Positions 1 through 2,660 of a stretch of 64,000 bases of DNA are shown here, one piece after another. Source of the stretch: an uncultured Pelagibacteraceae bacterium. Its GTDB lineage: Bacteria > Pseudomonadota > Alphaproteobacteria > Pelagibacterales > Pelagibacteraceae. The notes beneath the pieces were generated by a model. It ran no database searches. It had not been told where the DNA came from and saw only the letters and a program-made list of their open reading frames with translations. A program made the position numbers and the translations under genes. The first letter of the stretch is position 1, and every line of letters starts with the position of its first letter. The stretch lies in assembly GCA_902517865.1 (NCBI GenBank), contig CABYDT010000003.1, positions 1 through 64,000 of the forward strand, in the 5' to 3' direction.

Positions 1-318
1 AGCTTTTAATCTCTCTTGCGCTTTCTTTTTAGGTTTTGCTTTTAATGGATTATTTCTTTTTTCTGGCATAGGAATAATCTTTGCTTCACCTAAAAATCTT
101 GCAATTCTAAATGATGGTTTTGCTCCTTTATCTAACCAATATTTAATTCTCTCTACATCGAAACTTAATCTTTCTTTTTTATCTTTTGGAAGTAAAGGAT
201 TAAAATATCCTACCTTCTCGATGAATTTTCCATCGCGTGGTCGCCTAGAGTCAGCTATAACAATTTTGTAAAAAGGTCTTCGCTTAGCGCCGCCTCTTGA
301 CATTCTTATTTTTAACAT
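1..318 (-). CDS. rpsP: 30S ribosomal protein S16 (3' end cut by window)
   Basis: Small-subunit ribosomal protein S16. The reverse strand from ATG at 318 reads [17 protein letters not shown], then [20 protein letters not shown], the standard S16 opening. All 106 visible codons are open and the C-terminal, lysine-rich tail runs off the left edge of the window. It lies 12 bp downstream of ffh on the same strand, as in the usual alphaproteobacterial order ffh-rpsP(-rimM-trmD), so it is probably co-transcribed with ffh. The identification is secure; only the C-terminus is unseen. Confidence 0.96.
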
Positions 319-1692: not shown

Positions 1693-1801
1693 AATTAAAT
1701 ACCCCAGCAACTATCGCACTAGTGGGCGAATCCTCGCTGACTAGTGTTGATCTCCTCTTTAAAAGGACACCAGAAAAATTGATATTTCCTGGAAGTTGCT
1801 A
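1693..1801 (-). ncRNA. Structured 5' leader RNA of ffh
   Basis: Read as RNA from the minus strand, the segment folds as a closed multi-helix junction. A closing stem pairs AGCAAC (1800-1795) with GTTGCT (1711-1706). Inside it sit three hairpins: CCAGGAAA with UUUUCUGG (1792-1785/1777-1770), UCCUUU with AGAGGA (1767-1762/1758-1753), and CACTAG with CTAGTG (1746-1741/1722-1717) capped by GCGA with UCGC (1737-1734/1729-1726). Two stems contain G-U pairs that would be A-C mismatches on the other strand, so the minus strand is the likely RNA. The closing stem ends 13 bases before the ffh ATG. I recall that an RNA motif upstream of ffh has been proposed in Pelagibacter, but I cannot verify that this is the same one. 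Function is unknown; autoregulation of SRP or a small cis RNA are options. Confidence 0.7.
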
Positions 1802-1856
1802 GAAATTATATAGATATATTTATAAAGTCAAGAAAAGGAGATAATACTTATAAATC

Positions 1857-2660
1857 ATGAATTTTAATGCATTCAAAATGGATGGTTTGGGTAATGATTT
1901 TTTGATTATCGATAATAGAAAACAAAAAGTATATTTAAATGAAAAACAGATACAAAAGCTGTCTAATAGAGAAAACGGAATTGGTTTCGATCAATTAATT
2001 TATATTGAAAAAGAGGGTACCGACTTAAGAATAAAATACTTTAACTCAAATGGAAAATTTGCAGACGCATGCGGTAACGGTAACAGATGTGTTGCTAAAA
2101 TTCTAATGGATGAAATAAAAAGCGATAATGTCAGTTTTTACGTGGGAGACAAACTACATGATGCAAAACTTATTAGTGAAAAAATTATATCAATCAACAT
2201 GGGAAATGTAACATATGATCTAAGTAAAATTCCAGTTTCTAATGGAGTAAATAAAAATCCTATAAAAATAAAAGTAGACGAATTTATTGATGAGGGATAC
2301 CTTGTTAATATAGGTAACCCTCATATTATTTTTTTAACAGATATATCAGATCAAGATTTAAAGAAAATTGGTCCTAAAATAGAGAAGCACGATTTCTTTC
2401 CTAAAGGTATAAATGTTACGTTTGTAAACTTGAGTAAAAATAATATAAGAATTAAAACATGGGAAAGAGGTGCTGGAAACACTTTGTGCTGTGGTACCGC
2501 GGCATGTGCTACTGGGCACCTATTAATACAAAAAAAATTATCTAATAATCCAGTGAAAATAAATTTTCCTCTAGGCTTTATTGAAATTAAAAAAAACCTT
2601 GAGGAAATTGTGATGACTGGACCAGTTTCAGATATAGAAAAAATAACTGTAAAAATATGA
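1857..2660 (+). CDS. dapF: Diaminopimelate epimerase
   Basis: Converts LL- to meso-diaminopimelate, the last step before DAP enters lysine synthesis and peptidoglycan; cytosolic. The 267-aa length is normal. Both catalytic cysteines of this cofactor-free racemase are in place: Cys72 in ACGNGNRC and Cys212 in CCGTAACA, with the ERGAG substrate loop before the second. An AGGAG-like sequence lies about 15 bases upstream. The stop overlaps the ftsY start by 4 bp (ATGA), so dapF, ftsY and csaA form one plus-strand unit divergent from ffh. Confidence 0.96.
   Translation: MNFNAFKMDGLGNDFLIIDNRKQKVYLNEKQIQKLSNRENGIGFDQLIYIEKEGTDLRIKYFNSNGKFADACGNGNRCVAKILMDEIKSDNVSFYVGDKLHDAKLISEKIISINMGNVTYDLSKIPVSNGVNKNPIKIKVDEFIDEGYLVNIGNPHIIFLTDISDQDLKKIGPKIEKHDFFPKGINVTFVNLSKNNIRIKTWERGAGNTLCCGTAACATGHLLIQKKLSNNPVKINFPLGFIEIKKNLEEIVMTGPVSDIEKITVKI

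Follow-up and report, generated by a model that had tools for sequence, protein, structure and literature searches.

A probable three-hairpin leader RNA ahead of ffh and rpsP in Alphaproteobacteria, kept where no SRP component was found

Introduction

Upstream of ffh in an uncultured Pelagibacteraceae bacterium, a leader fills the gap between ffh and the divergent gene dapF, with rpsP next after ffh, and the question raised by this locus is what the RNA made from it is, how much of its structure is shared by related genomes, and what it might answer to. The window analysed here is a stretch of 64,000 nucleotides (contig CABYDT010000003.1, assembly GCA_902517865.1). A first-pass annotation of this DNA had drawn a four-helix RNA closed by an outer stem, and had suggested that it may let the SRP level control ffh, for example by mimicking a site bound by Ffh. 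The ffh motif of Meyer et al. 2009 (PMC2704228) is described, in the portion of that paper available, as a single bulged hairpin with more than 600 representatives and no known function, widespread in Alphaproteobacteria and not found in Rhodospirillales, Caulobacterales or other Rickettsiales. The features of the locus are as follows.

1..318, minus strand: rpsP (ribosomal protein S16), downstream of ffh; TIGR00002, 98 bits
331..1692, minus strand: ffh, first gene after the leader; TIGR00959, 517.5 bits
1702..1716, minus strand: conserved 3' tail; conserved position by position, at a set distance from P4, in 188 elements
1717..1746, minus strand: P4, the Rfam ffh hairpin, with a C1739.C1724 mismatch and a wobble-like A1738.C1725 pair; RF01793, 55.2 bits, and pair counts
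1748..1772, minus strand: P3, second hairpin, with extension 1769-1772/1748-1751 (UGGU/AUCA); 96.6% paired versus 86.0% shuffled
1770..1792, minus strand: P2, first hairpin (CCAGGAAA/UUUUUCUGG); MFE fold and covariation
1803..1808, minus strand: predicted -10 hexamer TAATTT, spacer 17; conserved promoter register, predicted +1 at about 1794-1798
1805-1810, minus strand: alternative predicted -10 TATAAT, spacer 15
1826..1831, minus strand: -35 hexamer TTGACT of the predicted operon promoter; conserved promoter register
1857..2660, plus strand: dapF, divergent neighbour; TIGR00652, 216.1 bits

Results

Folding of positions 1680-1820 gave an MFE of -44.0 kcal/mol (z -5.5) on the minus strand and -35.4 kcal/mol (z -4.3) on the plus strand, with 0 of 200 shuffles as good on either. 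All four helices of the first-pass annotation are present in the minus-strand MFE fold, namely P2 (1770-1792), the core of P3 (1753-1767), P4 (1717-1746) and the closing stem (1706-1711 with 1795-1800); in comparisons with relatives the first three covary and the closing stem lacks conservation. The earlier observation that G-U pairs point to the ffh direction was confirmed for P2 and P3, and as both contain such pairs the ffh strand is favoured, supporting a structured leader transcribed in that direction. The structure does stop 13 bases before the ffh ATG at 1692, as had been described. The extension of P3 shares positions 1770-1772 with the base of P2 in the window.

The ffh-associated motif in Pelagibacter mentioned in the first-pass annotation, which proposed a comparison with Rfam, proved to be family RF01793 ("ffh"). 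A scan of the window returned two Rfam matches, a tRNA and RF01793 at 1709-1761 on the minus strand, the latter over its full length (1-52) with 55.2 bits against a cut-off of 35. Because this score exceeds the cut-off, the leader belongs to the described family, and it also carries the C.C/A.C hairpin and lies upstream of ffh on the same strand. Three other Rfam families matched at the leader, all far below their cut-offs. The SRP RNA family (RF00169) gave no match there up to E 5; the genome's own SRP RNA lies at G000:C8:12159-12256, and the ffh gene is the sole link between the leader and 4.5S/SRP RNA. With the published motif, as far as its description (PMC2704228) could be consulted, the leader has in common P4 with its two conserved cytosines, the position before ffh and the occurrence in Alphaproteobacteria, to which we add a covarying P2 and extended P3, a conserved tail and a promoter. 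The Rfam model spans 52 positions, with P2 and the extended P3 outside its structure. The family is thus known, and the structure is larger than the published single hairpin.

RF01793 matched 268 of 297 genomes of the order Pelagibacterales (SAR11) and, in a repeat on a second SAR11 family, 41 of 50. Conservation of the helices was then counted on A2, a MAFFT alignment of 33 varied SAR11 leaders out of 70 distinct trimmed sequences, for which no structure model was used. RNAalifold on A2 recovered P4 and the extended P3, and six of the predicted pairs carried double changes; P2 was not placed. For P2, P3 and P4 taken together, 95.0% of cells were paired compared with 88.6% after shuffling, a value reached by 0 of 500 shuffles, with double changes in 10 pairs and at most 48.6% of cells paired when the helices were slid. 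The extended P3 alone was paired in 96.6% of cells compared with 86.0% shuffled and had changes on both sides in six of its nine pairs, and its base, [N]GGU/AUC[N'] (1769-1772 with 1748-1751), formed standard pairs in all 33 rows.

The closing stem behaved differently on the same alignment, with 52.6% of cells paired compared with 52.5% for shuffled sequences, 281 of 500 of which were as high. Covariation across SAR11 leaders, which the first-pass annotation had put forward as the check on its model, is therefore present for P2, extended P3 and P4 and absent for the closing stem, and the closed junction does not stand as drawn. As its pairing equals the shuffled level, the stem is, to judge from SAR11 relatives, peculiar to this sequence. 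Own and swapped partners were also compared for pairing between the tail and the first 11 nt, in tests that left out near-identical sequences (85-88% identity). Permutations were as good in 554 of 2000 cases for SAR11 and 1489 of 2000 for a second set; with blocking by GC content SAR11 gave p 0.026, and in two GC-controlled non-SAR11 sets no signal was seen (p 0.81 and 0.43). On the A2 counts and these swaps the closing stem was rejected, and three tandem hairpins are a better fit to the evidence than a closed four-helix junction.

A separate possibility, in which a GGU strand alternates between CC of P2 and AUC of P3, was also set aside: both complementarities occur in SAR11, but the switch is not required, because several alphaproteobacterial loci (L135, L137, L139, L152 and L166) form P2 without the overlap, as judged by eye.

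Upstream of the hairpins, the element is accompanied by a conserved promoter pattern. The sequence TTGAC, followed by 15-19 nt and TA, precedes 140 of 188 unique elements compared with 72 of 3760 mononucleotide shuffles, and 100 of those 140 have a spacer of exactly 17. TTGAC lies within 50-10 nt before the element in 145/188, compared with 32/187 for a control stretch after the element. From this pattern the operon transcript is predicted to begin near 1796. The closing stem, it had been noted, would never be made from a start downstream of 1795, and the predicted +1 at about 1796 would indeed cut it, since this position falls inside the 5' closing strand (1795-1800) and most of that strand would not be transcribed. 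Under a stricter promoter definition (134/188 elements), P4 ends a median of 81 nt from the predicted +1 (middle half 74-86), and the distance from P4 to ffh runs from 21 to 42 nt in 32 SAR11 loci and from 17 to 292 nt in 62 others. The RNA is tied to a conserved sigma70-type promoter and not to the ribosome-binding site. With such P4-to-ffh spacing, fixed occlusion of the ribosome-binding site was rejected outside SAR11; within SAR11 the tail likely overlaps the ffh ribosome-binding site, for which GGGG at 1702-1705 is the candidate. Long gaps between P4 and ffh (121-231 nt) behind an intact leader were seen at L046, L047, L048 and L053, and by eye the last three appear to carry inserted inverted repeats.

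The near-fixed distance from the promoter, with a free distance to the gene, is also what would be seen if the hairpins were a simple 5' stabiliser that did no more than protect the operon mRNA and bound no ligand. However, the C.C mismatch (178/188) and parts of P4 and the tail are conserved beyond the needs of a plain stable hairpin, and we consider such a simple stabiliser rather unlikely.

Another alternative arises from the tail. In the window, 1781-1794 can pair with 1702-1715 on the minus strand in an imperfect helix of 12 pairs, joining the 5' strand of P2 to the tail and covering the GGGG before the ffh ATG. The RNA could then be a bistable switch in which the P2 5' strand has two alternative partners, its own 3' strand and the tail, the second state in SAR11 closing a junction around P3-P4 and hiding the ffh ribosome-binding site. 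When the transcript is started at 1796 or 1798, the MFE structure does become the closed form (-34.2 and -34.4 kcal/mol, respectively), and the P2 5' strand binds more strongly to the tail of its own element than to swapped tails (GC-blocked p 0.0185 for 18 SAR11, 0.0092 for 57 others and 0.0055 for 78 new elements); a first duplex test with loosely cut segments had given no clear signal. Yet this helix shows no covariation on A2 (79.6% paired compared with 79.3% shuffled), and in the third set the negative controls also fire (P2 3' strand with the tail, p <0.001; P2 5' strand with the next 20 nt, p 0.04). An ensemble test was not significant in two of the three sets (p 0.32, 0.36 and 0.02), and the distance from tail to ATG varies widely outside SAR11. 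The statistical support for a second state is mixed, and we regard the switch as an improbable account.

In order to follow the RNA beyond SAR11, a sample of 385 genomes of the class (five of them SAR11) was searched. RF01793 matched 106, 81 of them above its cut-off. Two further covariance models were built, R1 from the 33 SAR11 rows of A2 and R2, a full-length model, from the combined set. R1 matched all 65 non-SAR11 loci, which had been picked by Rfam match, at E values up to 0.0012, and 97/97 of the combined set. R2 matched 227 of the 385 genomes (E up to 0.001), so that the three-hairpin model doubles the sampled genomes in which the RNA is found relative to the 106 of Rfam and takes in genomes that the Rfam model missed. 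Twenty new matches, drawn from the best 150 places listed and absent in the Rfam list, were checked; gene position had not been used in the search, and every one of them precedes ffh by 2-74 nt on the strand of that gene. A focused search of 30 Ffh loci from genomes in which no element had been detected found nine more, each just before ffh by coordinates.

By location, the element precedes ffh in 94 of 97 loci and rpsP in two PS1 loci, and the remaining contig ends after 66 nt. When 80 named loci were retrieved through their S16 genes, the strand of that gene carried a match in 76 (all but L203, L207, L223 and L246); among them are Sphingomonas, Microvirga, Methylobacterium, Ancylobacter and two MAGs named Robiginitomaculum. 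A second R2 match occurs in three of the 385 genomes (G303, G532 and G647), and as these have 5-8% contamination the second copy is uncertain.

Pair counts on two further alignments, A4 and A5, are model-fitted and lean towards structure by construction, which A2, predating any covariance model, does not: 93.3% of cells were paired compared with 72.4% shuffled in A4 (double changes in 23 of 25 pairs), and 88.7% compared with 64.4% in A5 (24 of 25). P3 was the weaker part of the structure there, paired in 79.4% of A5 cells, its outermost pair failing in 39 of 87 scorable rows. Two opposite-strand matches (L081 and L088) were excluded from the A4 scripts and kept in R2 (2/99 rows) and in the A4 pair count; likewise, three opposite-strand matches and L226 were excluded from the A5 scripts and included in its pair count.

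Across the 188 unique elements, P4 has C.C as its outer mismatch in 178 cases and U.C in the other 10. At the inner position A.C stands in 107, G-C in 29, C-G in 18, G.U in 12 and A.A in 10, with rarer forms U-A (6), A-U (5) and A.G (1). Because the A.C position alternates with G-C, C-G, G.U, U-A and A-U, the two-by-two bulge of the published and Rfam models is probably one conserved C.C mismatch with an adjoining pair, of which A.C is the commonest form. An A.C pair is isosteric with G.U when protonated. Relative to RF01793, this position covaries here as a pair.

After P4, the tail of non-SAR11 elements is U-rich (6.91 T in 15 nt compared with 3.05 expected), and no such excess is present in SAR11 (5.34 compared with 5.13 expected). 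An intrinsic attenuator at P4 would call for a GC-rich hairpin with a U run behind it; a run of at least four T follows P4 in 49% of 156 non-SAR11 elements and 12% of 32 SAR11 elements. With so few SAR11 runs, termination at P4 cannot be general.

The U-rich tail outside SAR11 bears on the possibility that the RNA is an independent small RNA acting in trans, with its 3' end at P4 and nothing but the promoter in common with ffh. Rfam itself assigns RF01793 the type "sRNA", and Meyer et al. mention the transcript in small-RNA metatranscriptomes (PMC2704228, in the part available). In Sinorhizobium meliloti, the accessible text of Valverde et al. (PMC2573895) lists sm5, a candidate sRNA in the dapF/ffh gap with a predicted sigma70-like promoter and a terminator, predicted 5' ends at 3522121 and 3522271 and a 3' end at 3522379 (108 nt from the nearer 5' end or 258 nt from the other; expected size about 120 nt). 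It gave short-RNA microarray signal in four stresses and had no Northern in that study, again per the accessible text. The leader and sm5 have in common the gap (dapF<-ffh>), the strand, a sigma70 promoter and a length of about 108-120 nt, but sm5 is described there as a stand-alone sRNA with a terminator, and the match is by location, not sequence. Against a trans-acting role, the element stands before ffh or rpsP at the loci checked (94/97 and the two PS1 loci, respectively), as do all 20 new matches before ffh, and the SAR11 tail has no U-rich excess. We therefore regard an independent small RNA as possible, though somewhat unlikely. Taken together, sm5 and the U-rich tail suggest that outside SAR11 part of the transcripts stop after P4, and they favour a cis leader whose bound state sets read-through or stability.

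Some genomes keep the RNA with no detectable SRP. Of 101 element-bearing non-SAR11 genomes, 80 were searched for these genes; S16 turned up in 77, and 76 gave a match to Ffh or FtsY. The other four, lacking both, coincide exactly with the four genomes of one family, f51 (93-97% complete; G345, G469, G564 and G640), two of which correspond to records named Hyphomicrobiales bacterium AH-657-K06 and uncultured PS1 clade bacterium AH-321-D15. The SRP GTPase profile PF00448 gave only weak, partial matches in these four (best E 0.007, below cut-off), compared with two full-length GTPases in each of eight comparison genomes. SRP RNA (RF00169) was found in none of the four and in seven of the eight comparison genomes, the one miss (G655) having Ffh. 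On sequence searches of these four genomes, the PS1/OCS116 clade (loci L134, L159, L172, L173 and L192-L196) thus seems to have dispensed with the SRP system altogether, as neither Ffh nor FtsY nor SRP RNA was found. A literature search, whose coverage lacked most subscription papers, found no paper on SRP loss in this clade.

At two loci without ffh, a dapF-like frame (by eye) is followed by the element and then S16, so that the next gene is rpsP where the published motif, in its available description (PMC2704228), has ffh. The order at L193 is an MtaB-like gene and dapF (divergent), the element and S16, then RimM, TrmD, L19 and LeuC frames, as read by eye. Three further PS1/OCS116 records share the element-rpsP arrangement; the SRP search covers the four genomes alone. 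Four PS1 sequences score 38.5-48.7 bits with RF01793. In seven PS1 sequences P3 and P4 can keep pairing through two-sided changes, by eye; examples are A-U replaced by G-C in P3 and, in P4, the same replacement and C-G by U-A. In the single-sequence MFE of four of the seven, P3 is absent and its 5' strand pairs with the tail.

As the PS1 genomes keep the RNA before rpsP with no detectable SRP, it is not simply an Ffh sensor, and neither SRP-level control nor mimicry of an Ffh site, as first suggested, is supported as a general explanation. An autoregulatory leader bound by Ffh or SRP would fit with ffh being the first gene in nearly all loci seen, and autogenous control by RNA-binding proteins is common. 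Yet all four PS1 genomes, in which no Ffh, FtsY or SRP RNA was found, retain the RNA with compensatory changes, and dependence of the element on SRP is not seen in any of them. Moreover, the ffh motif does not resemble the Ffh-bound part of 4.5S RNA according to Meyer et al. (PMC2704228, available part). We consider Ffh sensing unlikely as a general function and give autoregulation by Ffh or SRP very little credence. The name "ffh" motif and its assumed job are probably wrong, because the RNA survives in marine bacteria seemingly without Ffh.

Elsewhere in the sample, a convincing Ffh is also missing from seven genomes: three (G313, G350 and G425) gave no TIGR00959 match, G364 and G371 gave marginal matches only, and G379 and G405 gave only FtsY-sized or weaker ones; S16 was found in all seven except G379.

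In element-bearing genomes where ffh and rpsP could both be located, rpsP was always downstream of ffh and no more than 6 kb away (73 of 73); of the genomes with no element detected, 35 of 44 showed this linkage (Fisher 8.6e-5, uncorrected for phylogeny). This comparison is weighted on its unlinked side by small genomes and left out partial Ffh matches (e.g. G394, G524, G317, G360 and G368); on the closer search, which covered 30 of these loci, nine of the 44 carry the element, and none of the nine is unlinked. An S16 leader is expected to precede an operon carrying the gene for its ligand, and rpsP indeed comes after ffh in 73/73 and directly after the element in PS1.

Discussion

This locus points to a promoter-proximal, cis-acting leader that heads the ffh-rpsP-rimM-trmD-rplS operon and may respond to a ribosomal protein, a reading in which we place about as much belief as doubt; control at the level of the operon is itself likely. 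The RNA would form the first 80-100 nt of the ffh-rpsP-rimM-trmD-rplS transcript (ffh-less in PS1), made from a constitutive-type promoter just upstream and folding into three tandem hairpins (P2, extended P3 and P4) followed by the conserved tail. It would act in cis on the operon and not as an Ffh sensor. An operon product or a general translation signal would most likely bind P3-P4, and binding may alter read-through past P4 or the lifetime of the transcript, leaving a short RNA like sm5. The ligand would be a ribosomal protein, with S16 as first candidate and L19 as second. One point against this account is that in PS1 the RNA could have been co-opted for another function.

S16 is placed first because its gene is next in line in PS1 and because Flavobacteria have a proposed S16 leader. 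That candidate (Eckert and Weinberg 2020, PMC7247131, in its available part) shares with the present RNA a leader position before rpsP-rimM and S16 as the proposed ligand. It belongs to another phylum, however, and the two are likened by gene position, not by sequence or structure; most alphaproteobacteria, in addition, have ffh between the RNA and rpsP. No similarity was found between R2 and the E. coli rrnB rRNA operon (best 6.1 bits, E 1.2), and mimicry of rRNA is therefore not seen there.

A broader interpretation, which we hold tentatively and judge more doubtful than the leader itself, is that the "ffh motif" is misnamed and is an ancient, class-wide leader by which S16 (or L19) governs ffh-rpsP-rimM-trmD-rplS and ties export capacity to ribosome supply, kept by a lineage that deleted its SRP, and maybe switching between two states, one with P2 formed and one with the junction closed by the tail. 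The three-hairpin model would move the search for a ligand away from Ffh. A 2024 review (PMC10931766) states, in its accessible part, that there is no information on regulation of the E. coli trmD (rpsP) operon, which is rare among ribosomal-protein operons. An RNA that heads the rpsP operon across much of the class, and is kept where SRP seems lost, offers a direct test of operon control.

A published match to RF01793 in Mesorhizobium huakuii, MH_s5, is placed in IGR_Pb-19, seemingly a plasmid intergenic region (PMC5596092, available part); were this match genuine, it would represent a copy outside the ffh operon of the chromosome.
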